Below are positions 4,764 through 20,715 of a stretch of DNA of 26,272 nucleotides, piece by piece. Positions within the stretch are counted from its first letter, which is position 1. The number at the start of each line of letters is the position of its first letter. Location: positions 1-26,272 of IMG/VR virus record IMGVR_UViG_3300027747_002272; one strand, 5' to 3'. Made by a program: the position numbers and the translations under genes. This DNA is from a virus. A model generated the notes under the pieces. That model worked only from the letters and a program-made list of their open reading frames with translations, was not told where the DNA came from and did no database searches.

Positions 4764-6905
4764 ATGGGTATTGTACAAAGACTTACATCTAATGGTACTC
4801 TATACACAGCAGGAACATTAGACGAAGCCACATTCAATCCCAATTCTACATACAGAAAAAATCTATTTCAATCCAGTAATTCTGTTAACACAGGTTATTG
4901 GGCGACAGCTGCTACAACTTTAACACCAAATGCTGGAGTTGCTCCCGATGGAACAATGACTGCAAGTTTAATTGTTGGAAACTCTGGTGCAGCTGGAAGA
5001 AAAGCAATATATCAATACATTTATAATGGCATATACAACAACGTAACATACGTCTATAGTGTTTATTTAAAATCTGCTGGTTTTAAAAACATTAATATGT
5101 GGATTGATACGTTTTATCTTTTGCCTAGTCCGTATAATGGTGCTGGTTGCCAAGTTGATTTAACAAACGGAACAACAAGTGGTTACCCAGGTACAACAGT
5201 TATTCCTATTGGTGATGGATGGTATCGTTGTTATGTTACTGGAACACCGACAAACCTAGGCATATATGGCCTCAACTTTACAATCAGTCTAGGTGAGGCA
5301 AACGGAAACGGAACAGCTGTTGGTGATGGTGTTTCGGGTGTTTATGTTTGGGGTCCTCAACTAGAAATAGGTTATACTGCAACTGTATTTGAACCGACAG
5401 GAGCAAATGCAGTACCTATACCATCGGCAAAATCAAAACTGGATGCTAATGGAAACATATATCTTACTGGTACATATGATGAAGTGACATTTAATCCTAA
5501 CTCCAAGTATACAAAAAATATATTACCATACAGTCAAGATTTTACCAGATGGGGATATCCATCAAACTTTTATGTTGTACCAAATGCAATCGCTGCGCCT
5601 GATGGAACATTAACAGCAAGTAAATTTACAATTCCTGATACTACTCCAGCAAATATCGTACAATATGGTCTGACAGTTCCTCAACCATCAACAAAATATT
5701 ATACATTTAGTGTTCATGTCAAACAATTTGATGTGAATAATCCTTATGTGTGTTTCTATTTTGGTTGTGATTATCCTTTAGGTAATCAATATTCAAATAA
5801 TTTTGGTAATGAAATAACATTTAATTTTAATACGTTAACTTTTGGTGGTACAAGTTTTCCAACTATCAGTACATCATATACAACTTTACCTAATGGATGG
5901 TATAGGTTGGCAATAACTATTCAACCTGTTATTTCGAGTACAACTACCTCAATTAATATTTCATACATAAGAACATATATGTACTCGAACCAAGGATATG
6001 GTCGAGCTGCAGGCACAGCATATTTTTGGGGTACACAGATTGAAGAAGGTACAGTCGCAACAACTTATGTGGCTACTGGTGCCAATGCTGTACCTATTTC
6101 TAATACTGCGGCCAGAATGGAATCTTCAGGTAATCATTATGTATCACAACTGTATGATGAAGTATCTGGTATACCACCAGTAACAGACAGTTTAGTTTTA
6201 TATGTTGATGCAGCTGTACAGAAAAGTTGGCCAGGAAGTGGTTTAATATGGAATGATATAAGTGGTGCAAACAATCACCTTACATTAACAGGAAGTCCAA
6301 CACCAACAGTACATTCATTAGGTTATTTCAATTTTAATGCATCACAGGCAAATCAAAACTTAGGTCAATTTGCTTATGGAATTTCTAATCCTGTACCAGA
6401 ATCAATAAAATTTAATGGAAGAGAACCATTTACTCTAATGGTTTGGGTTAAAATCACAAAAGTAGTTCCACAAAATTCTTATCAGCGTATATTGGATAGA
6501 GATGGTGCAGATTCTGTTACGGGTGTTAGGTCAGGATACAATATATGGACAGATGGTTCTGCTGACGGACTTACACAATATGTATACTCGGAGAGATGGT
6601 GTTATCCGGCTGGAGTTGGTAATGGTAATGTCGGAATTGCAATTCCAACATCACAATTTATCAATCAATGGAATCATTTTACTATAACTTTTGACGGCGA
6701 AAGAACAAGATTGTATAGGAACGGAATTCTAGTTTCATCTAATTCAACACCAGGAAACATATTAAATAATAGTGAATATTATAGTATATTTAAATACGGA
6801 GCCAACAAAGGGTATGTTGGTCAAAATCTAATATACAGTAGAGCTTTAACGGCCACAGAAATATTGGCCACATATGATGCTACGAAACTCAGATACGTAA
6901 ATTAG
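4764..6905 (+). CDS. tail fibre/adhesin with two carbohydrate-binding-like modules and a LamG domain
   Basis: A 713-residue protein built of three units, each introduced by a similar linker: GTLYTAGTLDEATFNPNS (~11-28), GNIYLTGTYDEVTFNPNS (~230-247) and GNHYVSQLYDEVSGIPPV (~456-473). Units 1 and 2 are beta-sandwich modules with TYVYSVYLK or YYTFSVHVK, a DGWYR or NGWYR strand, and endings YVWGPQLEIG...TGANAVP and YFWGTQIEEG...TGANAVP. Unit 3 (~470-713) is a LamG/concanavalin-A-like domain starting VTDSLVLYVDAA and containing FTLMVWVKI, WNHFTITFDGERTRLYRNGI and VGQNLIYSRALTATEI. It is a paralogue of the truncated protein at the left edge. Likely role: sugar-binding part of the tail fibre apparatus. 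No catalytic residues were recognised. It is separated by 6 bases from the previous gene. Confidence 0.75.
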   Translation: MGIVQRLTSNGTLYTAGTLDEATFNPNSTYRKNLFQSSNSVNTGYWATAATTLTPNAGVAPDGTMTASLIVGNSGAAGRKAIYQYIYNGIYNNVTYVYSVYLKSAGFKNINMWIDTFYLLPSPYNGAGCQVDLTNGTTSGYPGTTVIPIGDGWYRCYVTGTPTNLGIYGLNFTISLGEANGNGTAVGDGVSGVYVWGPQLEIGYTATVFEPTGANAVPIPSAKSKLDANGNIYLTGTYDEVTFNPNSKYTKNILPYSQDFTRWGYPSNFYVVPNAIAAPDGTLTASKFTIPDTTPANIVQYGLTVPQPSTKYYTFSVHVKQFDVNNPYVCFYFGCDYPLGNQYSNNFGNEITFNFNTLTFGGTSFPTISTSYTTLPNGWYRLAITIQPVISSTTTSINISYIRTYMYSNQGYGRAAGTAYFWGTQIEEGTVATTYVATGANAVPISNTAARMESSGNHYVSQLYDEVSGIPPVTDSLVLYVDAAVQKSWPGSGLIWNDISGANNHLTLTGSPTPTVHSLGYFNFNASQANQNLGQFAYGISNPVPESIKFNGREPFTLMVWVKITKVVPQNSYQRILDRDGADSVTGVRSGYNIWTDGSADGLTQYVYSERWCYPAGVGNGNVGIAIPTSQFINQWNHFTITFDGERTRLYRNGILVSSNSTPGNILNNSEYYSIFKYGANKGYVGQNLIYSRALTATEILATYDATKLRYVN

Positions 6906-6922: not shown

Positions 6923-9900
6923 ATGGCAAAACTAACGAACACAACAATCTACGGCGCAGCAAATATCACAGGTAATGTGGTATCGACTGGTTATGGCTTT
7001 GACATTTCCGCAAATGGTGGAGTAGTAAATCTATCTACGGCCAATTCAATAACGTCTATTACGGTATCTAATAGTGGTGCTGGATATCAATCTGTACCTG
7101 CAATTCTGATTGCAAATCCAACAACTGGTGGTGTTGCAGCAAATGCTAATGCTATAATAAGATTCTCAGGAACAATTGCTGTAGGTAATGTTGGCGCTGG
7201 TTATTCAAATGGTGATTATCTTTACGCAAACGTTGCTGGTTCCAAATCAAATGCTTTATTTCAAGTCACAAGTAATACTGCAACTACTTATGGTACTGGT
7301 GGTATTAATGGTGTTAACTTAATTAGAGCTGGACAATACTACACTATACCACCAGGTTCAACAGGTGCCACTCCATACATAACAATCACCGGCACAACAG
7401 GAACTGGTGTAGGTGCTAACTTACAATCTCTTTCTGGTATCGCAATTGATTCTGTCGAATTCCAAAACTATGGTTCTGGATACGTACAACAACCTTCAGT
7501 AACAATTTCTGGTGGTTCACCAACTACTACATCAACAGCATATGCTATAATTGGAGATTCAGTAACAATTAAAGGTCTTGGTTATTCCACAATCAATCAG
7601 ACTTTTATGACCTTTAAAGGTCCAAATAGCCAATCAGACACATTCAGATTGGGTATTGGTAATGCCTTAACACCAGAATATGTTACATTAGAAAACACAC
7701 AATATGGCCGTTCAAACTTTTATGCTGGTGGTGGTACAAACTCTCAACTATGGCTTGGTGCAACAGGTAGTGGTTATATAAATTTCTCAACAAGAGGTAC
7801 ATCACTAATAACTCAATTTAGGGTTGCAGATACGGCATCAGCAATTAACTATTTACAAGTTACAGGTAATACCATTGGTTCAGGTCCACTCATTTCAGCA
7901 CAAGGTTCTGATACAAATATCGATATATATCTAGCCGCTAAAGGTACTGGTAGAATTAACGTAGCGTCTAAGATGGTTGTTGGTGCTGCCAATGTTAGCA
8001 ATTTCAATTCAACGGCATTATCAGATGGTTTAGTTGTAGCTAATAATGCTACTAGTGGTTCAATTGGATTTGGTGGCACCAATGGCCGTACATTGTCGGC
8101 ATATCAAGGTAGTAGTATAAGTAATTTTGATATGCTGGCCAACCAAGTTTATTATACGGGTGATTTATTAGTTACTGGTAAAATAAGTTCACCTAATGGT
8201 GCAACATCAAATCTAACATTAACAACAACAGCAGCAAACTCGACAGTCTATATTGATAGAACACTCTATTTGGCAAATGCCAACACATCAACAAGCAATT
8301 CAACAGGTGCTTTGATAGTTAATGGTGGTGTTGGTGTATCAGGTAACATATATGTTGGTGGTACTAATGCTGGTGTTAACGGAGTTTACACAGACGTTCT
8401 AAGATATGCTGCGAACGGATTGCCTTGGGTAATGAGTTCTGGTGGTGTTGTTGGTGGTAACGTATCAGCTTCTGGTTGGACAACCAACACAATCTTATTT
8501 GCCAATGCTACTGGATTCTTATCTACTGTTAGTGCTAATTTATCTTATTATGATGCTAATAATACCATAAGAACAGGTGGTTTAATACTTTCTGGACCTG
8601 TATTGGTTCAGAATACAACGCCATCAACCAGTAACACTACAGGTTCATTGGTAGTTTCTGGTGGTGTTGGTGTTTCTGGTAACGTATTTGTAGGTTCTGT
8701 TTATGCTAATACAGGATTTCAATTAGGTTATGCTGCTGATGGTGTTAGTCCAATACAAGGCACATTCAAGTGGAGCGGTCCAAACGTTTCTCCAGCTTGG
8801 TTTGGAATTTATGATTCTACTTCATCAAGATACTACGGAATATCATCATCACTACCTGGATCAATAGCTTCAGTTGGTGGTTATTATTCTGGTATGGGTA
8901 TTAGTGGAACAACATCATCAGCCGGTTCTCCAATATTTGGTGTATTAAACAATACACAATCAGGAAATGGATTGGGTAATACTGCTTTTACCATTTACGG
9001 TGATAGTAAAGTTATTACACTAAGAAATACTTTAGATGACAATCGTGGTAATGCAAACGTTACAGGTAATTTAACTGTGGGTAATTCCACATCATCTATA
9101 TCATCAACCAGTAACACTACAGGTTCATTGGTAGTTTCTGGTGGTGTTGGTGTTTCTGGTAACGTATACATTTCAAATACAATTTCTATATTAACTGATA
9201 GTGCTGGATTAACAAATCGGCCAATTACTATACAAGGTGGTCAATCAGGAACCTTTGGTGCAAGAATTGGTGTTGCTGAAGCTCTTGATTTTTATACAAT
9301 TAATTTTCCAATTTACTTTGCAACATCTGGTGCAAGAACATCTACACAATTTGTTGTTAATGCTACAGCATCGGCTGTAAACTATTTACAAGCATCTGGT
9401 AATACAACAGGTGGTGGTGTAGTATTATCGGCTGCAGGTTCAGATACAAACATTGGTATCAATATCACACCAAAAGGTTCAGGTTCGGTCAATATTACAA
9501 GCACTGCTGTAACTACAAGTAACACAACAGGATCTTTAGTTGTTTCTGGTGGTATTGGTGTTACAGGTAACGTATATCTATCTGCTGCAAATAACTTTGG
9601 TGTCACTTCATCGAGTTTTGGTAGTTATCGTTTAGGTTGGTCTGATAACTACTTATATAGAAGCGGTCAGTTTAATGGTATGGAATTTAGTGGTACCTAT
9701 TTCTCCATTAAACAAGGCCAATTCTTCGTAGAGGCAAACGTTCCTGCTACAGTTAGAAGTTTTATTAATAATGATTCAGGTAATAACACAGTAATTTTTT
9801 ACGCTGGTTCTCCTGTATTGGTTCAGAATACAGCAGCTGCTGTTAGTAACACAACAGGATCTTTAGTTGTTTCTGGTGGTGTTGGTGTTACAGGTAACGT

Positions 9901-12900
9901 ATATCTATCTGCTGCAAATAACTTCAATGCAAGTACTGGAAGTAACAGTTATCGTTTAGGATGGACAGATAACTTCTTTGAAAGAGATGCAGTTAACGGT
10001 GGAATGTTGTTTAGAGGTTCTTTCCTTAATGCACAAAATAATCTTTTTGCATCTGGTGTTTTTTATGCTCGTTCATATATTGCAAATGATACTGCTAATG
10101 GTGTAGTAATTTTTGGTGGTGCAAGTCCTGTATTACATCAAAACACAGCAGCTGCTGTTAGTAACTCAACTGGTTCTTTGATAGTTAATGGTGGTATCGG
10201 AACTTCTGGTGCTATCTATTCTACTGGTGGTTCAATCACAATCAATAACGGATTGGCCACAACAGGTAACTCAGGAACAATTTTCTTAGGTGACGGTTCG
10301 TTTACTAAGACATATGGCGGTTCTTGGACATTTGGTGGTGGTGTTAGGTCTACTGGTGCAGGATTTACTGCGGATGGAGTACCAGGTATATCATATACAG
10401 GTTATGTTTTTTCAGGAACAGGACAAGCTATTTACCAACCATCAACTGGTGTTGTTGGTGTTTTAGCAAATAGTGCAAATGCTTTTATGGTATCTACACC
10501 AGTAAGTTCTGTAAATTACTTACAAGTTTCTGGTAATACTACAGGTAATGCACCAACATTATCAGCACAAGGTTCTGATGCCAATGTAAACATGAACATT
10601 GTTTCATCCGGCAATACATCAATCATACAAGGTGCAAACAACTTTGTAACCTTTGGTGGTATGCCAGGAAATGAAGTCGTTAGAATTTATAGAAATAATT
10701 CAATTACTGGCGGTTATTTCAATACAGGTGCTTCTACACCACCGGCATTTTCGTTTATACCTCCACAATCGAATTTTGGTGCAGCAGTAATTAATTTAGG
10801 ATTAAATCCAAGAATTAATTCATTAGGTTCAGATGGTTATTATCTACAAACAAATACATCCGAAGGATATAATGGATCCGCACAACTTAAAATTGCACAC
10901 ACAGGTTCAACAGTAAACTACTTGAGTGTTAGTGGAAGTATAGCAGGTAACTCTGCTACTATGACAACACTTGGTTCTGATGCCAACGTGGCAATGTCAT
11001 TCTTACCTAAGGGTACTGGTGCATTTAATATATCAACAGCCAACGGTGTCAATTTAAGTTCTGGTAATACTACTGTTACTGGTCTCTCTATCTCGAATAA
11101 TGGAAGTAACTATACTTCATTTCCAACTTTAACTATTTCACCACCAACAACATCAAGTGGTATTACAGCAACAGGCTCGGTTGCTAATATGAACTTTAGT
11201 GCAGGCGCACCAACAGTTGTTAATGGTGGTACTGGATATTCATTGAATGATGTACTGACCATCGTTGGTGGAACACCAGTAAGTTCTGCTGGTACATTAA
11301 CAGTAACCGGTATTTCAGCTAATGTAATTACATCTGTAACATACACAGCATACAATACTTATTCAGTACTTCCATCTAATCCAGTTTCTGTAACTGGTGG
11401 TACTGGTACTAGTGCTACATTTAATTTACTTTGGAAACCAAACTTCTTATCTATTACCAATCCAGGTTCTGGTTATGTTGAACAACCAACAGTAAGTTTT
11501 AGTGGAGGTAGTGGTTCTGGTGTTACTGCTTATGCTAGTGTTGGTAGTAGTACATTAATTAAATCTCTTAGTTCTTCCATGAGTTTCTATACTCCTGGCG
11601 GAGAGTTTTTAAGATTACAAGAAAACAATAACGGCACCTTCTTTCAACCATTACAAATTATCCGTGATAATTCATCGAATGTCACTAAACTATCTGGCGT
11701 TGGTCAAAATTTAAGACTTGAAGCAACAAACTCTGGTGGTGTAATAACTTTGGGTGGTATAAGTGGTGATACTTCACTTCGTGTTTCACCTCTAAGTTCT
11801 GCTGTTAACTATGTAAACATAACAGGTAATACAGCAGGTGGTCCTGTTGTAATATCATCACAAGGTTCTGATACCAACATTGGTATCAATATTATACCAA
11901 AGGGTAATGGTTCCGCTAACATCGTAAGTACAGCAAATTCAACTAGTAATACGACTGGTGCTTTAGTAGTTACCGGTGGTATGGGTATCACAGGTAACGT
12001 ATTCTTATCTTCTGCCAATAATTTCTTCAGTACAACAACAGGTGCTAGTTATCGTTTAGGTTGGCCAGATAATCATTTCTACAGAGATGAAAGATATGGT
12101 GGAATAAATTTCTCTGGTGGCTATCTGAATATGGCCTCAACTTTTATCACCTCAGCTGCTCTTAGTATTAGAGGTACGGTTGTAAATGATGCAGGTAATA
12201 ATGTTGTAGTATTTGCCGGTAGCTCTCCTGTATTATTACAGAATACAACACCTTCTACAAGTAATATTACAGGCGCCTTGGTTGTTGCTGGCGGTGTTGG
12301 TGTCAAAGGTAATGTGGCTACAGATGGTATTATCTTTGCTGATGGTACAAGACAAATTACGGCAGGTTCGTCTATAGCCAATACAGTATATCTACAAGGC
12401 GTAAATGATAGCCAAAATGCTAGAATGGTCATCATTGAAGGTACCAATTCTAGCCAGAATGTAAGATTGGATTATAGTAATACCGCCATTACTATTATAC
12501 AAGGTGTTGATGTTGGCCAAAACAATCGTATGACCATCATTGAAGGTGTTGACGTTACACAGAACACCAATATTGCGAACAAGTTAAATCTAACCGGTTC
12601 TCTTAATCAAACTGTTTCGGGTAATGTAACCATCAGTCAAGATTTAATTGTTTCTGGTAACTTAATTATCACAGGTAACATCGCTTCACAAAATGTACAA
12701 CAACTAGCTGTTGCTGATCCATTAATCATTTTAGGTATTGGTAATTATGTTAGTGATACCAAAGATATTGGTTTTGCTGGACATTATAATGATGGTACGA
12801 ATGCTCATGCTGGTTTAATTAGAGATTCTGGAACAAAAGAATTCTATGTATTCCAGGGATATACTCCTGAACTAGATTCAAATAATAATGTTATCATTAC

Positions 12901-14353
12901 TGACCCAACGTTTACAACAGCAAACTTAAATGCTAACTATGTAAAAAGTAATTTAGTTGCTACGACAGTAGTAGTTAATGGTATTGATTTAAGTACTTAT
13001 ACTCAAGCAACATATGCTCAAGCCAATGTAACAATTGGAGTAGATACTAGTCAGAACGCTAGAATGACAATTATTGAGGCTACTGATGTAAGCCAGAATT
13101 CTAGAATGACCATCATTGAAGGTACAAACGCCAGCCAAAACGTAAGATTAGATTATAGTAATACAGCTATCACGATTATACAAGGTGTTGATGTTACCCA
13201 AAACACCAGATTAACTGTAATCGAAGGTACTGATGTGAGCCAGAATGCTCGCATGACTATTATAGAAGGTACCGATACAGCACAGAATACACGAATGACT
13301 GTGATAGAAGGTACTGATGCAAGTCAAAACGTAAGATTAGATTATAGCAATACAGCAATTACCATTATTCAAGGTGTAGATGTAGCACAGAACACATCTA
13401 TATCTGCTACTGATGGCAAAATGCAATCAGCTTATAATACAGCAAATAATGCTGTTGCAAATATTGGTCCAGTAATTACAACTAATACTACTGCTCAAGT
13501 TATTATTGCAAACACAGCAGCATCAACAAGTAACACTACTGGTTCTTTGGTAGTTAAAGGTGGTCTTGGTGTTGCAGGTAATATATCCGCTTCGGGAATC
13601 ATATCAACAAATTACCAAGGCGGAGGATTAACGGCTGCGCAAAATGCTGCAATGCAAATCTCTGGTGCCAATACAAAAGGTGGTACAGGATATTTCGATT
13701 TCTTATGGGCTAATAATACTTACTCAACATCAAATAGTTTATTCTTCCGTATTTCACCTTCATCCAATTTAGAAATTATTAATGGCATTTACACGACTAA
13801 AATATTAGATTTAAGTCAATCAGGAACTTTAAACGTAACAAATATGTTTGTTACAACAGGATCAGGAGCAATTTATGCAGATAGTATCCGTTACTCGGCC
13901 AATGGCTCTCCTTGGTCTTTTGGTGGCGGTTCTATTGCAATTACAAATGATACCACAAACTCAACTACATTATTTCCATTATTAACGTCAGCAAACTCCG
14001 GTACATTTAGTTCCGCCAATACATCAAACACTAAACTGTATTATGTTCCTTCAACTGGAACATTGAATGCTACAATATTTAATTCGTTGTCTGATGTTAA
14101 GTACAAAGAAAATATTATTACTATCGTTGATGCTGTCAATACTGTAAATCAAATAGATGGTGTATCATTTAGTTGGAAAGATAATGGACTTAAATCGTAT
14201 GGTGTTATTGCTAATGAACTTGAAAAGATTTTACCTGAACTAGTTACTACCGAAAATGATACAAAATCGGTTAATTATTCTGGCCTAATTGCTTTCTTAA
14301 TTAATTCAGTCAAGGAGCTTGATGCTAGGGTAAAGCAATTGGAGAATAGATAA
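6923..14353 (+). CDS. giant mosaic tail fibre/spike protein with C-terminal peptidase S74 chaperone
   Basis: A 2476-residue protein that is almost entirely repeats. Residues ~40-205 and ~1380-1546 hold NSG(A/S)GY...P..(T/I)I..G modules. Nine copies of TSNTTGSLVVSGGVGVSGNV-type strands are spread through the chain (near bases 8284, 8622, 9102, 9512, 9836, 10151, 11937, 12255 and 13520). Five copies of VNYLQ.(S/T)GNT.G....SA.GSD.NI alternate with them, and three ~110-residue modules begin SYRLGW.DN. Residues ~1828-1883 and ~2040-2157 are 14-residue QN.RMTIIEGTD.S repeats, probably a fibrous shaft. Between these lies ADPLIILGIGNYVSD...DIGFAGHY...HAGLIRD. The last 87 residues are an S74 chaperone domain with Ser2390 and Lys2395. 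The gene overlaps the next by one base (TAATG). Probable role: trimeric fibre contacting the host surface. Confidence 0.8.
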   Translation: MAKLTNTTIYGAANITGNVVSTGYGFDISANGGVVNLSTANSITSITVSNSGAGYQSVPAILIANPTTGGVAANANAIIRFSGTIAVGNVGAGYSNGDYLYANVAGSKSNALFQVTSNTATTYGTGGINGVNLIRAGQYYTIPPGSTGATPYITITGTTGTGVGANLQSLSGIAIDSVEFQNYGSGYVQQPSVTISGGSPTTTSTAYAIIGDSVTIKGLGYSTINQTFMTFKGPNSQSDTFRLGIGNALTPEYVTLENTQYGRSNFYAGGGTNSQLWLGATGSGYINFSTRGTSLITQFRVADTASAINYLQVTGNTIGSGPLISAQGSDTNIDIYLAAKGTGRINVASKMVVGAANVSNFNSTALSDGLVVANNATSGSIGFGGTNGRTLSAYQGSSISNFDMLANQVYYTGDLLVTGKISSPNGATSNLTLTTTAANSTVYIDRTLYLANANTSTSNSTGALIVNGGVGVSGNIYVGGTNAGVNGVYTDVLRYAANGLPWVMSSGGVVGGNVSASGWTTNTILFANATGFLSTVSANLSYYDANNTIRTGGLILSGPVLVQNTTPSTSNTTGSLVVSGGVGVSGNVFVGSVYANTGFQLGYAADGVSPIQGTFKWSGPNVSPAWFGIYDSTSSRYYGISSSLPGSIASVGGYYSGMGISGTTSSAGSPIFGVLNNTQSGNGLGNTAFTIYGDSKVITLRNTLDDNRGNANVTGNLTVGNSTSSISSTSNTTGSLVVSGGVGVSGNVYISNTISILTDSAGLTNRPITIQGGQSGTFGARIGVAEALDFYTINFPIYFATSGARTSTQFVVNATASAVNYLQASGNTTGGGVVLSAAGSDTNIGINITPKGSGSVNITSTAVTTSNTTGSLVVSGGIGVTGNVYLSAANNFGVTSSSFGSYRLGWSDNYLYRSGQFNGMEFSGTYFSIKQGQFFVEANVPATVRSFINNDSGNNTVIFYAGSPVLVQNTAAAVSNTTGSLVVSGGVGVTGNVYLSAANNFNASTGSNSYRLGWTDNFFERDAVNGGMLFRGSFLNAQNNLFASGVFYARSYIANDTANGVVIFGGASPVLHQNTAAAVSNSTGSLIVNGGIGTSGAIYSTGGSITINNGLATTGNSGTIFLGDGSFTKTYGGSWTFGGGVRSTGAGFTADGVPGISYTGYVFSGTGQAIYQPSTGVVGVLANSANAFMVSTPVSSVNYLQVSGNTTGNAPTLSAQGSDANVNMNIVSSGNTSIIQGANNFVTFGGMPGNEVVRIYRNNSITGGYFNTGASTPPAFSFIPPQSNFGAAVINLGLNPRINSLGSDGYYLQTNTSEGYNGSAQLKIAHTGSTVNYLSVSGSIAGNSATMTTLGSDANVAMSFLPKGTGAFNISTANGVNLSSGNTTVTGLSISNNGSNYTSFPTLTISPPTTSSGITATGSVANMNFSAGAPTVVNGGTGYSLNDVLTIVGGTPVSSAGTLTVTGISANVITSVTYTAYNTYSVLPSNPVSVTGGTGTSATFNLLWKPNFLSITNPGSGYVEQPTVSFSGGSGSGVTAYASVGSSTLIKSLSSSMSFYTPGGEFLRLQENNNGTFFQPLQIIRDNSSNVTKLSGVGQNLRLEATNSGGVITLGGISGDTSLRVSPLSSAVNYVNITGNTAGGPVVISSQGSDTNIGINIIPKGNGSANIVSTANSTSNTTGALVVTGGMGITGNVFLSSANNFFSTTTGASYRLGWPDNHFYRDERYGGINFSGGYLNMASTFITSAALSIRGTVVNDAGNNVVVFAGSSPVLLQNTTPSTSNITGALVVAGGVGVKGNVATDGIIFADGTRQITAGSSIANTVYLQGVNDSQNARMVIIEGTNSSQNVRLDYSNTAITIIQGVDVGQNNRMTIIEGVDVTQNTNIANKLNLTGSLNQTVSGNVTISQDLIVSGNLIITGNIASQNVQQLAVADPLIILGIGNYVSDTKDIGFAGHYNDGTNAHAGLIRDSGTKEFYVFQGYTPELDSNNNVIITDPTFTTANLNANYVKSNLVATTVVVNGIDLSTYTQATYAQANVTIGVDTSQNARMTIIEATDVSQNSRMTIIEGTNASQNVRLDYSNTAITIIQGVDVTQNTRLTVIEGTDVSQNARMTIIEGTDTAQNTRMTVIEGTDASQNVRLDYSNTAITIIQGVDVAQNTSISATDGKMQSAYNTANNAVANIGPVITTNTTAQVIIANTAASTSNTTGSLVVKGGLGVAGNISASGIISTNYQGGGLTAAQNAAMQISGANTKGGTGYFDFLWANNTYSTSNSLFFRISPSSNLEIINGIYTTKILDLSQSGTLNVTNMFVTTGSGAIYADSIRYSANGSPWSFGGGSIAITNDTTNSTTLFPLLTSANSGTFSSANTSNTKLYYVPSTGTLNATIFNSLSDVKYKENIITIVDAVNTVNQIDGVSFSWKDNGLKSYGVIANELEKILPELVTTENDTKSVNYSGLIAFLINSVKELDARVKQLENR
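8622..8687 (+). repeat. 66-bp exact direct repeat, copy 1
   Basis: This 66-base stretch is identical to 9102-9167, exactly 480 bases downstream and in the same reading frame. It encodes the STSNTTGSLVVSGGVGVSGN strand of the giant fibre. Exact identity at silent positions points to recent duplication or gene conversion. Confidence 0.85.
9102..9167 (+). repeat. 66-bp exact direct repeat, copy 2
   Basis: Identical to 8622-8687 by direct comparison; the copies diverge immediately after base 9167. It lies in the giant fibre gene. Confidence 0.85.
9518..9597 (+). repeat. 80-bp near-exact direct repeat, copy 1
   Basis: Matches 9845-9924 (offset 327 bases, in frame) with a single difference (ATT versus GTT, Ile/Val). 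It encodes SNTTGSLVVSGG(I/V)GVTGNV followed by YLSAANNF in the giant fibre. Confidence 0.85.
9845..9924 (+). repeat. 80-bp near-exact direct repeat, copy 2
   Basis: Second copy of 9518-9597 with one base different. Each copy precedes a SYRLGW.DN module, so the duplicated unit is probably a whole structural module whose ends have stayed more similar than its middle. Confidence 0.85.
12404..12570 (+). repeat. 14-residue shaft repeats, array 1
   Basis: Translated repeats of the form (S/G)QN.RM.IIEG.(N/D), interrupted by VRLDYSNTAITIIQGVD. The regular 14-residue spacing with Asn, Ile and Gly at fixed places suggests a fibrous or coiled-coil shaft. It continues as array 2 after about 160 residues. 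Confidence 0.7.
13040..13393 (+). repeat. 14-residue shaft repeats, array 2
   Basis: Longer array of QN.R(M/L)T(I/V)IEGTD.S repeats with two more copies of VRLDYSNTAITIIQGVD, starting near 13141 and 13331. Same motif as array 1 and known by sight from T4-like marine phage fibres. Confidence 0.75.
14090..14350 (+). other. peptidase S74 intramolecular chaperone domain with predicted self-cleavage site
   Basis: This stretch encodes the last 87 residues of the giant fibre. SDVKYKEN at its start has Ser2390 and Lys2395 spaced as the S-D-x-x-x-K dyad known from endosialidase-type S74 chaperones. Then follow DGVSFSW, YGVIANELEKILPELV, VNYSGLIAFLINSVKEL and a terminal coiled coil. In this family the chaperone cuts itself off just before the Ser once the trimeric beta fibre has folded. 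The predicted cut is therefore between Leu2389 and Ser2390. All key residues appear intact. Confidence 0.85.
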
Positions 14354-15570
14354 TGGCTGGAAATTTTACTGGACCTGAAGGTGATTTAGAAACTCCATTT
14401 AATAATTTTTCCAGTTATTTTATTGATGAATATAGTTTTATTGACCAATATAATCCTGGTAGTTTATGGACTTGGGGCTATAATGCTTATGGCCAATTGG
14501 GAGATAACACCGTATCCACCAGACAATCGCCTATACAAACGATAGCCAACACAACAAATTGGATACAAGTTTCTGCTGGTATATATCATGTAAGTGGAAT
14601 TAAATCTGATGGTACATTGTGGATATGGGGTTATAATAATAATGGTGAATTGGGTGATAACACCGTAGTTAGAAAATCATCACCTGTACAAACGGTTGCT
14701 GGTGCAAATAATTGGATACAAGTTTCTTGCGGAGAAGCAGCTACAGGTGCTATTAAATCTGATGGTACTTTATGGATGTGGGGGAGTAACGGTTCGGGCC
14801 AATTAGGAGATAACACCATAACAAAAAAATCATCACCGGTACAAACTGTTGCAGGCGGTAATAATTGGAAACAAGTATCAGTTGGTACCAGCGCAATTTC
14901 TACTGTTTCTGCTGCGATAAATATTTCCGGCCAACTTTTTTTATGGGGTTATAATGGTTATGGAGCTTTAGGAGATAATACCAGAACAAACAAATCTTCT
15001 CCTGTACAAACTGTTTCAGGTGGCACTAACTGGAAACAAGTTTCTTGTGGTGATAGTCATGTTGGTGCCATTAAAACAGATGGTACTCTCTGGATGTGGG
15101 GGAATAACGGTTCGGGCCAATTAGGTGATAACACAACAAATTCGAGCTCTTCTCCTGTACAAACTGTTTCAGGTGGTACTAACTGGAAACAAGTTTCTTG
15201 TGGTTGGGCAATCACTGGAGCTATTAAAACGGATGGTACTTTATGGTTATGGGGTGAAGGACCAGGAGGCCAATTAGGAGATAACACCATAACAAAAAAA
15301 TCATCACCTATACAAACTGTTGCAGGCGGTACTAACTGGAAACAAGTATCAATATCAGCATTTCATTCAACCGGTTTAAAAACTGACGGTACTTTATGGA
15401 CTTGGGGTTATAATACTTATGGCGAACTAGGAGATAACACCACAACAAAAAAATCATCACCTATACAAACTGTTTCGGGTGGCACTAACTGGAAACAAGT
15501 ATCAGCGGGTAATGAGATTACTATTGGTATTTATTTTTATGATTACAATAATCAATATCCAAATAAGTGA
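14353..15570 (+). CDS. RCC1-repeat protein A, predicted seven-bladed propeller
   Basis: A 405-residue protein. After a ~37-residue unique N-terminus (MAGNFTGPEGDLETPFNNF...) come seven ~50-residue repeats, LW.WG.N..GQLGDNT....SSPVQT.AGG.NWKQVS.G......IK.DGT. This is the RCC1 (regulator of chromosome condensation) signature; seven repeats equal one full seven-bladed beta-propeller. Repeat 3 departs from the rule, with ...VSAAINISGQ in place of IK.DGT. There is no signal peptide and no enzyme motif. The ATG overlaps the fibre stop (TAATG), with GGAG 8 bases upstream at 14341-14344. By position it is probably a fibre-tip or receptor-binding protein. The fold is confident, the function inferred. 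Its DNA repeats are partly near-identical. Confidence 0.8.
   Translation: MAGNFTGPEGDLETPFNNFSSYFIDEYSFIDQYNPGSLWTWGYNAYGQLGDNTVSTRQSPIQTIANTTNWIQVSAGIYHVSGIKSDGTLWIWGYNNNGELGDNTVVRKSSPVQTVAGANNWIQVSCGEAATGAIKSDGTLWMWGSNGSGQLGDNTITKKSSPVQTVAGGNNWKQVSVGTSAISTVSAAINISGQLFLWGYNGYGALGDNTRTNKSSPVQTVSGGTNWKQVSCGDSHVGAIKTDGTLWMWGNNGSGQLGDNTTNSSSSPVQTVSGGTNWKQVSCGWAITGAIKTDGTLWLWGEGPGGQLGDNTITKKSSPIQTVAGGTNWKQVSISAFHSTGLKTDGTLWTWGYNTYGELGDNTTTKKSSPIQTVSGGTNWKQVSAGNEITIGIYFYDYNNQYPNK
14797..14880 (+). repeat. 84-bp RCC1 unit repeat, copy 1
   Basis: Matches 15268-15351 (offset 471 bases) at 80 of 84 positions, including the silent run of seven A residues in the AAAAAAATCATCACC segment. It encodes GQLGDNTITKKSSP and TVAGG.NWKQVS in two different repeats of protein A. 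Confidence 0.8.
15268..15351 (+). repeat. 84-bp RCC1 unit repeat, copy 2
   Basis: Second copy of 14797-14880 with four differences. More diverged relatives occur throughout the three RCC1 genes, for example from about 15885 in protein B. Confidence 0.8.
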
Positions 15571-15575
15571 TATAA

Positions 15576-16778
15576 ATGGCATATACAACAAATTATATTA
15601 ATTCTTCAGGTTATGATGTTGGGTCAAATGTAGCATTTTACATTCCTAAAAGTTATATTCTTGACCGTTATGCTGAAATGCCAAACATATTTAAAGCACC
15701 GACTGTTTGGACTTGGGGTTCTAACTTTTATGGTGGCATAGGCGACAATACAACAAATACAGCATCATCACCGGTACAAACTGTTGCAGGCGGTACTAAT
15801 TGGAAACAAGTATCATCGAGTGGCTTTGGCTTCAAAGCAGCTATTAAAACTGATGGTACTCTATGGTTATGGGGTCGAAATATTTATGGCCAATTAGGAG
15901 ATAATACCATAACGGACAAATCTTCACCTGTACAAACTGTTGCAGGGGGTACTAACTGGAAACAAGTATCTACTGGAAGTAATTTTGTAGGAGCTATAAA
16001 AACTGACGGTACGTTATGGGTATGGGGAATTAATGATACTTATCAGCTTGGTGACTCAGGATCATCAACAAGACAATCATCACCTATACAAACAGCTTCT
16101 GGTGGTACCAATTGGAAACAAGTTTCTGCAGGATACTCTCACATAGGTGCTATTAAAACAGATGGTACTTTATGGATGTGGGGTAGTTATAACAAAGGTG
16201 AATTGGGAAACAGTGATAGTGCTACTCAAGTTTATGTACCTACACAAATAGGAGTGAATACAAATTGGACACAAATATCTTGTGGTCAAACAGTTTCAGC
16301 AGGAATTAAATCTGATGGTACATTGTGGACTTGGGGATTAAATCAAGGTGGAATATTAGGTGATGGCACATCAGTATATCCAGGAAGATCCTCGCCAGTA
16401 CAAACAATTGCTGGTGGAACAAATTGGAAACAAGTATCGTGTGAAGGTGGATTTTTTATGGCTGCTATTAAAACTGATGGTACTTTATGGATGTGGGGCC
16501 AAAATACTAGTGGTGAATTAGCTACCGGAAACAGAACGGATCGGTCTTCACCCGTTCAAACTATTTCTGCTGGTACAAATTGGTATCAAGTATCTGGATC
16601 ATCTGCTATTAAAACTGATGGCACATTGTGGGCTTGGGCTGGAAATTTATATTATCAATTAACATCTTATGTTTCTTCTCCTGTACAAATATATAATGGT
16701 GGCGGCAATTGGAAACAAGTTTCTAACGGAATTGCTATTCGTGATGATTCATCTGATATGTTTGGAAATCCTTATTAA
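15576..16778 (+). CDS. RCC1-repeat protein B, predicted seven-bladed propeller
   Basis: A 400-residue paralogue of protein A. The unique N-terminus, ~42 residues (MAYTTNYINSSGYDVGSNVA...), differs from those of A and C. Seven RCC1 repeats follow, from VWTWGSNFYGGIGDNT to LWAWAGNLYYQL. Repeats 4, 6 and 7 are the most degenerate (WTQISCGQTVSAGIKSDGT; a shortened YQVSGSSAIKTDGT; repeat 7 ends in AIRDDSSDMFGNPY instead of IK.DGT). The start codon lies 5 bases after the previous stop. No catalytic motif. Likely role as for A: a surface-exposed, ligand-binding propeller of the tail apparatus, inferred from its place in the fibre region. Confidence 0.8.
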   Translation: MAYTTNYINSSGYDVGSNVAFYIPKSYILDRYAEMPNIFKAPTVWTWGSNFYGGIGDNTTNTASSPVQTVAGGTNWKQVSSSGFGFKAAIKTDGTLWLWGRNIYGQLGDNTITDKSSPVQTVAGGTNWKQVSTGSNFVGAIKTDGTLWVWGINDTYQLGDSGSSTRQSSPIQTASGGTNWKQVSAGYSHIGAIKTDGTLWMWGSYNKGELGNSDSATQVYVPTQIGVNTNWTQISCGQTVSAGIKSDGTLWTWGLNQGGILGDGTSVYPGRSSPVQTIAGGTNWKQVSCEGGFFMAAIKTDGTLWMWGQNTSGELATGNRTDRSSPVQTISAGTNWYQVSGSSAIKTDGTLWAWAGNLYYQLTSYVSSPVQIYNGGGNWKQVSNGIAIRDDSSDMFGNPY

Positions 16779-16780
16779 TT

Positions 16781-17272
16781 ATGTCTACAATTAAAACGAT
16801 GACGATTGATGGCTTTTATTCCCAAGAAGAAGCCAAAAAATTATCTTCTATAACTCATGCTCTACCATTTATACAAAATGAATTTGGTAAAGAAATAGAA
16901 AACTTCAACTTGACTCCAGATAATCCTGATACATTATTTTCTAGTGTTCTAAATAAAAGAGTACATATGATTGAAGAACAATCTGGTATTTTAAGAAGAC
17001 CAGATATGTTCATACATTTTGAAAGTTTTGATTCACCGCAAGAATGGTTATTTGTTGTTGCCTTAGAAAATTCCACATTCAATTTATTTGAACATCAGTC
17101 TGGCGCCAAGTGTGCATTAGATGATTTCAAATTTAATTATCGTAATTTGTTTGAATGGAATTTAACAGTAAATTATTTGTTAGAACCAGGACAAGGAATA
17201 TTTTTTAGACCATGGTTATTTCATAGTTTTGATTCGGGATTAATACAAACATTTAGATTGAAAGAAATTTAA
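16781..17272 (+). CDS. predicted double-stranded beta-helix (Fe(II)/2-oxoglutarate oxygenase-like) protein
   Basis: A 163-residue protein. The opening TIDGFYSQEEAKKLSSI is typical of the N-terminal strand and helix of small phage prolyl-hydroxylase-like proteins. FIHFESF gives a candidate H79-x-E81 metal pair, PWLFHSFDSG a distal H148, and QTFRL an Arg159 eleven residues later. Together these fit the H-x-(D/E)...H...R pattern of Fe(II)/2OG oxygenases. LEPGQGIFFRPWLFHSF resembles the G-x-x-x-FxP...H strand of that fold. Length is short for the family, so it could also be a cupin-like binding protein without activity. It sits between two RCC1 genes: 2 bases after B, one-base TAATG overlap with C. 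Co-translation with the propellers is likely; a fibre hydroxylase role is a guess. Confidence 0.5.
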   Translation: MSTIKTMTIDGFYSQEEAKKLSSITHALPFIQNEFGKEIENFNLTPDNPDTLFSSVLNKRVHMIEEQSGILRRPDMFIHFESFDSPQEWLFVVALENSTFNLFEHQSGAKCALDDFKFNYRNLFEWNLTVNYLLEPGQGIFFRPWLFHSFDSGLIQTFRLKEI

Positions 17273-18444
17273 TGCCAAGTGGTTTTCAAATAAACGGATC
17301 CGATGTAGATGATTTATTTGTCTCCAGAGATATTTTCTCACAAGGAGGAATTATGACTTGGGGAGATAATACATATCTACAACTTGGTTATCCTACTGGA
17401 TCCACCAGAACTACACCAGGATATATGACTACACAAAGACCAAATTGGCGTCAAATTTCTGTAGGAGATAGTGCTTGTATGGCAGTTAAAACGGATGGTA
17501 CTATTTGGGGATGGGGTAGCCAAGGGTCCGGTAATATTGGTAATAATTTTATAGCTGATGTCTATACTGCTACTCCAGCACAAGAATGGTTTGCATCAAC
17601 AACATGGAAACAAGTTGTTAACGGTGGTAGCGGAGGAGGCGGAATTAAATCGGACGGTACTTTATGGACATGGGGTTCTCCAGGTTCAAATGGTAATAAC
17701 ACACAAAATTATAATTATACACCAGCACAAATTTATGGCGGTGGTAATAACTGGAAACAGATAGCTAGAGGTATATACGGATGGATGGCAGGTATCAAAA
17801 CTGACGGTACATTGTGGACTTGGGGTGGAAATTTTTATGGTAGTTTAGGTAATGGTAATGTTACGGGCACATCTTCTCCTGCTCAAACGGTTGCGGGCGG
17901 TACTAATTGGAAATTAGTGTCATGTGGATATAATTCTATGGCTGCTATCAAAACTGATGGCACATTATGGATGTGGGGAGATAATTCAAATGGCCAATTA
18001 GGTGATGGTACAACAATTAGTAAATCATCTCCCGTACAAGTAGCAACAGGCGGTACCAATTGGAAACAAGTTTCTGTAGGAGATTATTTTACAGTAGCTA
18101 TCAAAACTGATGGTACATTGTGGACTTGGGGAATAAATGACAAAGGTCAACTTGCTAACGGAACTTCTTCGTCATTTCCATATATATCGTCTCCAGTACA
18201 ATCAATATATAATACAGTTACATGGAAACAAGTTTCTGCCGGTAGACAATATGCTGGCGGAATTAAAACTGACGGTACATTGTGGATGTGGGGATACAAT
18301 CAAGTATCACAATTAGGTGACGGCACAACAACTAATAGGTCTTCTCCCGTACAAATACTTGTAGGTGGAGTAAATTTAAAATGGAAACAAGTGTCTTGTG
18401 GTTATGTACAAACAACAGCAGCTATAGTAGAAAACTATACGTAA
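17272..18444 (+). CDS. RCC1-repeat protein C, predicted seven-bladed propeller
   Basis: A 390-residue paralogue of A and B. A short N-terminus (MPSGFQINGSDVDDLFVSRD), of a kind I recognise at the start of small phage fibre proteins, leads into seven RCC1 repeats, from IMTWGDNTYLQLG to LWMWGYNQVSQLGDGTTTNR. Repeats 1-3 have diverged most (NWRQISVGDSACMAVKTDGT; TTWKQVVNGGSGGGGIKSDG; a shortened GSPGSNGNNTQNYN); 4-7 remain close to consensus. The differing N-termini of A, B and C over a common propeller suggest different attachment points or partners. The start overlaps the oxygenase-like gene by one base. It is followed by 22 bases without a strong ribosome site before the glycosyltransferase gene. 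Confidence 0.8.
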   Translation: MPSGFQINGSDVDDLFVSRDIFSQGGIMTWGDNTYLQLGYPTGSTRTTPGYMTTQRPNWRQISVGDSACMAVKTDGTIWGWGSQGSGNIGNNFIADVYTATPAQEWFASTTWKQVVNGGSGGGGIKSDGTLWTWGSPGSNGNNTQNYNYTPAQIYGGGNNWKQIARGIYGWMAGIKTDGTLWTWGGNFYGSLGNGNVTGTSSPAQTVAGGTNWKLVSCGYNSMAAIKTDGTLWMWGDNSNGQLGDGTTISKSSPVQVATGGTNWKQVSVGDYFTVAIKTDGTLWTWGINDKGQLANGTSSSFPYISSPVQSIYNTVTWKQVSAGRQYAGGIKTDGTLWMWGYNQVSQLGDGTTTNRSSPVQILVGGVNLKWKQVSCGYVQTTAAIVENYT

Positions 18445-18466: not shown

Positions 18467-19768
18467 ATGAAAAATATGAATCCTTTGGCAACCGCTGAAT
18501 TCTTTATACATATAAAACAAAACGATAAGGCAAAAATTGTTTTAGATTTAATGAAACCTTATTGCCGTACTATTGAACAAATAGATGAGGTTGGCAAATT
18601 ATATTCTGAGATAAGAGAATTTGAAGATACTCTAGAACTAGGTTTAAAAATTTATGAAATGTGTAATACTACACAAATGAAGTTTGACGCTAGAGTTAAT
18701 ATTATTAGAGCATATTTAAATTTAAACAAACCGTATGAAGCTTTATCTTTTATAAAAATAAATGAGATGGTTAATCCAGATGACCATCCAAATAAAATGG
18801 ATAAAGCTATGGCTTATTTTCTTTTGAACAGAAAAAAAGAAGCCGAAGAAATACTCAGAAAGATATTAACTGAAAATCCAAACGAAGATGTAGAAGCCAG
18901 AATTAATTTTAATCTAGGCACATACGATTTATCTAATGGAAATTTTAAAGAAGGCCTACATCATGTATTACTTGATGGTAGAAAATTAAATATATGGGAA
19001 TCTTTTGATTATCCAAAAGAACAATTATGGGAAGGTACTCCTCAACCAGGAAAAACAATTATTCTTTGTGCTGAAGGTGGAATAGGTGATGAGATTATTT
19101 CAGTTCGTTTTATGAAACATCTCAAAGAAGCCGGCATGAAACCGATTTGGATGACCAGTAGAAAAGATATATCGAATATATTTAATCGTTGTGGTTTTGA
19201 AACTGTATCTTACATAAAAAATATGCCTAAGGATTACTTATGGACATATTCTATGCCAGTACCAACATATCTAGATTTAAAAGAAGATGATGTTTGGTAT
19301 GGAACATATCTAAAACCAATACACAAAGCAAAAAAACTAGAAGGCAAAAAGAAAATTGGTATTAAGTATATGGGTAATCCTAAGTATGACCAAGATTTGC
19401 ATCGTACAATACCATTTGAAAAATTATTAGATTGTATTCCTGAAGATTATACAATATATTCTTTTCATGTTGATGAAGAAACTAACCATCCAAGAGTTAT
19501 TAATTTAAAAAATGATATTAAATCATGGGACGACACATTAGATTATTTGGACCAGATGGATATCGTTGTATCGAGTTGTACATCTTTGATTCATGCAGCT
19601 GGAGCAATAGGCAAAAAATCTTATGTTTTGGTGCCAATTTTAAATTATTATGTTTGGGCTAGACCTGGTTATCAAACAAAATGGTATGGTGATAATTTGA
19701 CAATACTAAGACAAACAGAATATGATAATTGGAAAGACCCATTACTTGAATTGAAAAATTTATTATGA
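18467..19768 (+). CDS. TPR domain fused to family-9-like glycosyltransferase
   Basis: A 433-residue protein. Residues ~1-170 are helical TPR-like repeats (for example NRKKEAEEILRKILTENPNE at ~121-140, then FNLGTYDLSNGNFKEGL). Residues ~195-433 are a GT-B domain like ADP-heptose:LPS heptosyltransferases: Gly-rich loop EGGIGDEI (203-210), YMGNPKYDQDLHRTIPFE (~301-318), the nucleotide-sugar site DIVVSSCTSLIHAAGAIGKK (365-384), and the closing VWARPG...WYGDNLTILRQ (~396-416). Likely reaction: sugar transfer from a nucleotide donor; donor and acceptor are unknown. Arg codons are mostly AGA. It overlaps the next gene by 4 bases (ATGA). Next to fibre genes it may glycosylate fibres or alter host surface sugars; both are inference. 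Confidence 0.75.
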   Translation: MKNMNPLATAEFFIHIKQNDKAKIVLDLMKPYCRTIEQIDEVGKLYSEIREFEDTLELGLKIYEMCNTTQMKFDARVNIIRAYLNLNKPYEALSFIKINEMVNPDDHPNKMDKAMAYFLLNRKKEAEEILRKILTENPNEDVEARINFNLGTYDLSNGNFKEGLHHVLLDGRKLNIWESFDYPKEQLWEGTPQPGKTIILCAEGGIGDEIISVRFMKHLKEAGMKPIWMTSRKDISNIFNRCGFETVSYIKNMPKDYLWTYSMPVPTYLDLKEDDVWYGTYLKPIHKAKKLEGKKKIGIKYMGNPKYDQDLHRTIPFEKLLDCIPEDYTIYSFHVDEETNHPRVINLKNDIKSWDDTLDYLDQMDIVVSSCTSLIHAAGAIGKKSYVLVPILNYYVWARPGYQTKWYGDNLTILRQTEYDNWKDPLLELKNLL

Positions 19769-20124
19769 ATAGAATATATAAAATAATAAACATCAATTTA
19801 ACGTCAGTAAGTACAGATGAAGAAATATCGGATGTACCATGTGGTACCTGTACAAAATGTTGTGAGATATTGGCACCTTACTTGACACCCGAAGAAGTCA
19901 GTTCAGGTAAATATCCACTTAGTTTAACTGACCCAACAGATTTAATGAGAACAGAACAACCAGAAGTTGGACCTACGGTGACGATGTTTAGAAATAAGAA
20001 TGGTGGATGTGGAATGTTTATAAATAATAGATGTTCTATATATGAAGATAGACCTTTTGCCTGTAGACAATTTGATTGTCGTAAGGGACACCACCCTAAG
20101 GTCATAGGAATATTGGATAAATAG
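19765..20124 (+). CDS. YkgJ-type cysteine-cluster (zinc/iron-chelating) protein
   Basis: A 119-residue protein with eight conserved-looking cysteines: C26-x2-C29-x2-C32-C33, then C82, C90, C100 and C105. The order CGTCTKCC ... GCGMFINNRCSIYEDRPFAC ... C is the classical YkgJ/CxxCxxCC family pattern, whose members are predicted to bind a metal ion or an iron-sulfur cluster. The biochemical function of the family is unresolved. Its ATG overlaps the glycosyltransferase stop by 4 bases, indicating translational coupling and possibly a shared task. The last codons overlap a late-promoter-like GATAAATA. No signal peptide. The family call is firm and the role unknown. Confidence 0.8.
   Translation: MNRIYKIININLTSVSTDEEISDVPCGTCTKCCEILAPYLTPEEVSSGKYPLSLTDPTDLMRTEQPEVGPTVTMFRNKNGGCGMFINNRCSIYEDRPFACRQFDCRKGHHPKVIGILDK
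20116..20123 (+). promoter_or_regulatory. T4-type late promoter GATAAATA
   Basis: One mismatch from TATAAATA. It lies 29 bases ahead of the ATG at 20153, leaving room for a normal leader with the ribosome site AGGAGAAA (20141-20148). The spacing makes this more credible than the other octamers abutting start codons. Confidence 0.5.
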
Positions 20125-20343: not shown

Positions 20344-20667
20344 ATGGCAAATAGCTATACATGGGCTGTTACTGGCCTGATGGTACAAAACAAAGATGAC
20401 ATGGAAAATGTTGCTGTAATGTCCAACTTCAGTATCAATGGTACCGATGGTACACACACAGGTCAAGTAAGTTATTCTGTGAATTTACTTCCTGCTGATG
20501 CAAAGAACTTCACACCTTACAATCAAGTCACACAAGAACAGGCTCTCGCTTGGACTAAGACTGCTTTGGGTGAAGACCGTGTTGCCAATATGGAAGCAGA
20601 AGTTGCAGCACAAATTGCACAAGCTGCCATTCCAACTCCACAGCCAGCACCATTGCCTTGGGCTTAA
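20344..20667 (+). CDS. small phage protein of unknown function, ANSYTW type
   Basis: A 107-residue protein with ribosome site AAAGGAAA 11-4 bases upstream. MANSYTWAVTGLMVQNKDDM opens a compact beta domain (residues ~1-55: VAVMSNFSINGTDG, GQVSYSVNLLP), followed by a helical region (TQEQALAWTKTALGEDRVAN, EAEVAAQIAQA) and a Pro-rich end (TPQPAPLPWA). The layout matches a family of small uncharacterised phage proteins often found near fibre or structural genes; I do not know its function. It is the last gene before the terminator at 20687, separating the adhesin region from the neck-terminase unit. Confidence 0.7.
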   Translation: MANSYTWAVTGLMVQNKDDMENVAVMSNFSINGTDGTHTGQVSYSVNLLPADAKNFTPYNQVTQEQALAWTKTALGEDRVANMEAEVAAQIAQAAIPTPQPAPLPWA

Positions 20668-20686
20668 GACTTTCATAGTCTAAATG

Positions 20687-20715
20687 AACAGCGGCTTCGG
20701 TCGCTGTTTTTCTTT
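20687..20715 (+). terminator. rho-independent terminator with cUUCGg tetraloop
   Basis: AACAGCGGC (20687-20695), loop TTCG, GTCGCTGTT (20700-20708): a nine-base-pair stem with one G-U pair closing on the very stable C(UUCG)G tetraloop, followed by TTTTTCTTT. It lies 20 bases after the 107-residue gene and just ahead of the gp13 promoter. Confidence 0.9.

Follow-up and report, generated by a model that had tools for sequence, protein, structure and literature searches.

What three genes made of RCC1 repeats do beside a tail-fibre gene of a T4-like phage is the question raised by the viral DNA stretch analysed here (IMG/VR record IMGVR_UViG_3300027747_002272, positions 1 to 26,272; its full 26,272 nucleotides are called the window). 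Our results indicate that the three products, named P1, P2 and P3, are probably virion-borne, tail-fibre-associated receptor-binding propellers in three dedicated slots. The initial annotation had described the genes as consecutive; three open reading frames (ORFs) do fill positions 14353-18444, but a 163-aa gene (16781-17272, named Y) separates P2 and P3. The features from the fibre gene to P3 are:

6923..14353, + strand: tail-fibre-like protein, 2476 aa, with a C-terminal Peptidase_S74 domain and PHROG tail matches
14353..15570, + strand: P1, RCC1 propeller, 405 aa, slot A, with seven blades and a class A N-terminus
14353..14463, + strand: N-terminal segment of P1, 37 aa, with the class A signature PEGDLE...FIDQY
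15576..16778, + strand: P2, RCC1 propeller, 400 aa, slot B, with seven blades, the last one degenerate; predicted closed
15576..15704, + strand: N-terminal segment of P2, 43 aa, with the class B signature KSYILDRY
16781..17272, + strand: Y, predicted 2-oxoglutarate (2OG)-Fe(II) dioxygenase-fold protein, 163 aa, from model, Foldseek and family motif
17272..18444, + strand: P3, RCC1 propeller, 390 aa, slot C, with seven blades and a class C N-terminus
17272..17349, + strand: N-terminal segment of P3, 26 aa, with the class C signature DDLFVSRDIF..GG

Splitting the proteins at the WxWG strand into repeats of about 51 residues gave exactly seven RCC1 repeats in each of the three, as initially counted. 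Pfam placed 7 (P1), 6 (P2) and 5 (P3) of these above its RCC1 repeat cut-off, and the remainder are degenerate but can be aligned with the others. All three proteins pass the curated Pfam cut-offs for both RCC1 and the RCC1-like domain WD40_RLD, the latter with E-values of 6e-71, 1e-55 and 8e-85 for P1, P2 and P3, respectively. P2 was chosen for modelling, from an alignment of 35 sequences, as it has the weakest last blade of the trio, the blades of P1 and P3 being clearer. The model reached a mean predicted local distance difference test (pLDDT) of 80.8 and a predicted template modelling score (pTM) of 0.81 and matched solved RCC1 propellers lengthwise, best of all RLD2 of HERC2 (Z 47.7, root-mean-square deviation 1.7, 344 residues). 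Foldseek matched it to UVR8 (3e-29), and the beta-lactamase inhibitor BLIP-II was also among the structural matches (Z 30). P2 is predicted from this model to be a closed seven-bladed RCC1 propeller, in agreement with the closed propellers first proposed.

To survey related loci, viral contigs were scanned with P1 and P3, and the hits were combined with isolate loci and the window into 71 non-redundant groups. Exactly seven blades were found in 125 of the 145 complete RCC1 ORFs, and most of the others lie near multiples of seven (14, 21, 41). The count of seven is therefore not due to chance, and the trio is real. The number of RCC1 genes per locus ranged from 1 to 6, with three as the commonest count (29/71), and the longest single ORFs held up to 41-46 blades; a fixed total of three propellers per phage was rejected on these grounds. 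The rarity first ascribed to the trio was overstated, as the layout is widespread in environmental phages and annotated in isolates such as S-SRM01. Some loci contained unusual forms. An open frame of 5909 residues in L111 carries 51 RCC1 blades and is cut at both ends. In L244:26-274 and L155:3501-4274 a slot peptide is followed by just one or four blades, reflecting either a repeat-collapse deletion or an assembly in which near-identical blades were collapsed. A class B gene of 140 aa with about two blades (L052:1870-2292), which comes immediately behind a complete class B gene, may be a remnant or a deletion product.

The residues ahead of the first blade number 37, 43 and 26 in P1, P2 and P3, and the difference among the N-termini noted initially corresponds to three classes with the consensus sequences PEGDL..F.TE..LID..VG (A), DLG.K.VTK.YLIDVYP.L (B) and DFDD.FV.R..F..G (C). 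The order A-B-C occurs in the window, in S-SRM01 and in many further loci. When slots were then set by gene position alone, to avoid circularity, slot 1 was class A in 24/28 loci, slot 2 class B in 27/29 and slot 3 class C in 22/24. N-terminal identity was 37.6% for the same slot in different genomes vs 22.0% for different slots of one genome, and the best N-terminal match came from the same slot in 62 of 66 cases, which 0 of 500 permutations reached. The propellers themselves showed no slot signal, with a same-slot identity of 49.5% equal to the background of 49.5%; within one genome their identity rose to 57.7%, vs a permuted mean of 49.7% and maximum of 51.4%. An N-terminus tied to the slot and a propeller tied to the genome suggest recombination among the three genes as the cause of propeller homogenisation within genomes. 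Full class A and C N-terminal alignments were too variable as queries, and narrower sets worked. Several RCC1 genes with a different N-terminal signature (GxWxLxQ...W), which would be a second family of docking peptides, were seen in L203, L064, L070, L091, L100, L105, L108 and L110. L203 is the distant marine virus AG-345-E08, whose three RCC1 genes have an N-terminal motif differing from A, B and C.

Variation within the blades is concentrated as well. Across 51-residue blades, entropy maxima fell at positions 6, 8, 9, 17, 19 and 40-42, and the strands of the P2 model span positions 1-5, 20-25, 33-38 and 42-47, so that loops 6-19 and 39-41 would share one face of the antiparallel meander. 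Blade positions 39-43 align with the GWRHT motif of UVR8, which forms the UVR8 dimer face. By a simple counting method on non-independent pairs of equal-length blades, the ratio of nonsynonymous to synonymous substitutions (dN/dS) in recent pairs of blades within one protein was 3.1 at variable positions vs 0.38 elsewhere, with equal proportions of synonymous differences (pS). In a split-half test, in which the eight most variable positions were picked on half of the loci and tested on the other half, dN/dS was 2.60 (1.64-3.43) at the picked loop positions vs 0.35 elsewhere; for P1 alone, with positions picked on the whole set, the values were 2.5 vs 0.27. One propeller face thus diversifies under positive selection, and the scaffold and the opposite face are conserved.

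Several observations link the propellers to the fibre. The fibre C-terminus matches Pfam Peptidase_S74, an intramolecular chaperone (residues 2390-2442, E 1.4e-10), and its stop codon overlaps the start codon of P1 (TAATG), as does the stop codon of Y with the start of P3 (TAATG). Connector, tail-sheath-stabiliser and terminase genes lie downstream of the propeller locus in T4-like order, which bears out its initial placement at the fibre locus of a T4-like phage. A direct fibre fusion was found in L028:2-4696, where a protein of 1565 aa contains seven RCC1 blades and has Peptidase_S74 at its C-terminus; other relatives have a propeller fused to N-terminal fn3, TIG or He_PIG domains, and in L157, which is cut, a glycine-rich tail-fibre-like stretch leads through a class B peptide into an RCC1 blade. 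Among the neighbours, a TPR family was the commonest (within 4 kb of RCC1 genes in 55/71 loci, and immediately next after the RCC1 gene in 47/67). A DUF4376/tail-fibre-protein family (28/71) usually lies between RCC1 genes one and two, and a fibre/S74-type family (23/71) and the chaperone Phage_tail_APC were present too. Mass spectrometry detected three tandem RCC1 proteins in virions of Escherichia phage W70 (PMC11370258) and one RCC1 protein in those of GAP32 (PMC5259590). The Saccharibacteria pilin PilX2 also bears a seven-bladed RCC1 propeller and is another surface-exposed RCC1 head (PMC12206443). Fusions, chaperone-like neighbours, a layout suited to co-transcription, the diversifying face and the remote virion relatives support receptor-binding heads at this fibre locus indirectly.

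Beyond P3 the gene string continues with the following features:

18467..19768, + strand: TPR protein whose C-terminal half is a putative GT-B-type glycosyltransferase, from a TPR match and weak glycosyltransferase (GT) signals
19765..20124, + strand: CxxCxxCC (zinc- or iron-chelating) protein, Pfam PF03692, E 2.2e-9
20344..20667, + strand: DUF7936 protein by domain match, apparently the last gene of the string
20686..20709, + strand: terminator-like hairpin with a T-rich tail 3' of the gene string, a consensus match only

The model of Y (pLDDT 89.5, pTM 0.86) is a double-stranded beta-helix with 2OG-Fe(II) dioxygenases as best Foldseek matches (E 3.5e-5). Its family of 12 relatives has invariant H79-x-E81 and H148, and a weak Pfam 2OG match in one of the 12 (E 0.038). 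On this evidence we predict that Y is a 2OG-Fe(II) dioxygenase. The locus count of 15 for the Y cluster is an upper bound, since single-linkage drew in kinase-like P-loop proteins (L012:12997-13419, L092:7648-8088). Glyco_transf_9 matched 5 of 10 members of the TPR family weakly (best E 0.012), the C-terminal half of the TPR protein resembled a solved glycosyltransferase weakly (E 0.0066), and a search for PF01075/GT9 gave no match in the window; these signals point weakly to a glycosyltransferase. As a query the TPR protein of the window retrieved no loci, and that of S-SRM01 was used instead: among 50,697 phage records it matched only S-SRM01, BUCT-ZZ01 and AG-345-E08, the three that are closest in their RCC1 proteins as well. 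Because these enzyme genes are linked to the propeller genes, our guess is that Y and the TPR/putative glycosyltransferase modify the fibre or the propellers. CxxCxxCC proteins (clusters c4 and c6, the latter in 12/71 related loci) recur beside RCC1 genes and are possible metal-linked modification partners.

Regulatory signals in the window were of little use. Terminator-like and sigma-70-like sites were no more numerous than in shuffles, and the T4 late-promoter sequence TATAAATA had a single match, at 20019, which is below chance expectation and hence uninformative. Scans for tRNA and Rfam families found no match, and NCBIfam gave no name to any of these proteins. Upstream of the fibre gene, positions 4764-6905 encode a tail/virion-like protein of 713 aa that has a lectin-like domain (Laminin_G_3) and is a further candidate adhesin at the locus.

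Other roles for the propellers have to be weighed against this evidence. Phage RCC1 trios have been reported before, in W70, and were taken there as DNA-condensing. This role in packing or condensing DNA is a guess based on the name of the family (PMC7247149, PMC11370258), which the filing of phrog_4219 under DNA metabolism in PHROG would favour. However, P1 directly follows and overlaps the fibre gene, propellers occur fused to fibre and S74 chaperone, the surface loops are under diversifying selection, and the RCC1 fold serves as a scaffold for interactions in general, as BLIP-II illustrates; we consider a condensing or packaging role inside the capsid quite improbable. The same fusions to fibre domains and S74, the tail-assembly-chaperone neighbours, the co-transcription layout with the fibre and the detection of relatives in virions make it very unlikely that the genes are morons near the fibre genes that encode intracellular or secreted effectors binding host proteins, even though RCC1 propellers can inhibit proteins as tightly as BLIP-II does and diversifying selection would fit host conflict too.

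There is a small chance that the proteins are not the specific receptor binders but decorate the virion or act as spacers on its tail or capsid, whether whisker-like or as heads that stick to carbohydrates in general. Remote relatives do sit in virions with no known function, the number of propellers per locus is highly variable (up to 41-46 blades per ORF), and the idea could be partly true, as loose binding of surface sugars would give an identical picture; the three slot-specific N-termini and the adhesin-locus linkage nevertheless suggest defined positions, and the strong selection on one face suggests a specific contact. The initial annotation had left open whether the heads are alternative or cooperating. 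Redundant heads used one at a time, as a copy-number or recombination reservoir, would be in keeping with the homogenised propellers of each genome and with duplicate A or C genes in some loci (A-A in L042, C-C in L052). We judge this improbable in view of the A-B-C order and slot-specific N-termini conserved in distant phages, which on sequence grounds favour cooperating, simultaneous and non-interchangeable positions.

Receptor binding by fibre-associated propellers is also confronted with findings that weigh against it. The docking peptide of P2 has low confidence in the model, and the dN/dS values come from a simple counting method, non-independent pairs and equal-length 51-residue blades only. 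Searches with class B- and class C-only N-termini recovered only RCC1 proteins, bar one cut case, and neither the collected loci nor the N-terminal-only searches held class peptides on non-RCC1 heads, so that exchange with other head types was not seen. The W70 trio is very distant in sequence and has no adjoining tail-fibre genes, the glycosyltransferase assignment is weak, the propellers have no known receptor, and we found no virion proteomics of this phage or of S-SRM01 in the literature. Nor did our literature search find a paper presenting RCC1 propellers as phage receptor-binding proteins.

On balance we still favour receptor-binding propellers in dedicated slots. Each protein would consist of a closed seven-bladed propeller, an exchangeable head, and a short N-terminal peptide, with peptides A, B and C most likely giving each propeller a docking place of its own on fibre or baseplate. 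The loops between strands 1 and 2 and between strands 3 and 4 of every blade are likely to form the surface that contacts host-cell structures, and recombination of repeats, both inside each of the three genes and from one to another, may homogenise the scaffold per genome and alter the propeller number in whole units. A more detailed scheme, which we put forward tentatively and hold to be somewhat doubtful as a whole, has three non-interchangeable docking peptides placing exchangeable propellers as in sockets on the fibre, faces diversifying by blade-level recombination and selection, and the dioxygenase and glycosyltransferase modifying the propellers. Phage RCC1 genes are annotated under chromosome condensation or DNA metabolism, and the evidence presented here favours host recognition for a module that is widespread among environmental T4-like phages. 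With a repeat scaffold, a single face under selection and docking tags that stay fixed, it would also be nature's counterpart to designed repeat binders.

With RCC1/UVR8/HERC2-type propellers the phage proteins share the sequence repeats, the count of seven and the predicted fold; they differ in being phage-encoded, in their very similar blades and in the extra slot-specific N-terminal peptides, and no Ran, nucleosome or COP1 function is known for them. To our knowledge, bacteria lack Ran. The W70 trio (W70_237-239) and the RCC1 proteins of GAP32, 121Q, PBEC04 and phAPEC6 are tandem RCC1-type proteins too, with a mass near 40 kDa (PMC11370258, PMC5259590, PMC7247149), but in the W70 trio our blade model finds 0, 0 and 3 blades, the A/B/C N-termini are missing, and the annotation shows neither fibre nor TPR nor dioxygenase genes beside it. 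Much closer is Synechococcus phage S-SRM01 (PQC13_gp335, 337, 344), which has the A-B-C classes, an S74 fibre upstream and adjoining TPR and 2OG oxygenase genes, although its first gene has 6 detected blades and its third lies about 4 kb further along. The only annotation its RCC1 genes carry is regulator of chromosome condensation, and in such an isolate the function of phage RCC1 proteins becomes directly testable. Finally, gp38 of T-even phages, a glycine-rich adhesin with variable loops whose single gene immediately follows that for the distal fibre, resembles the trio as read here in being a separate adhesin with a likely location at the tip. It is not a propeller, however, and a single adhesin gene stands there in place of the three slots described here.

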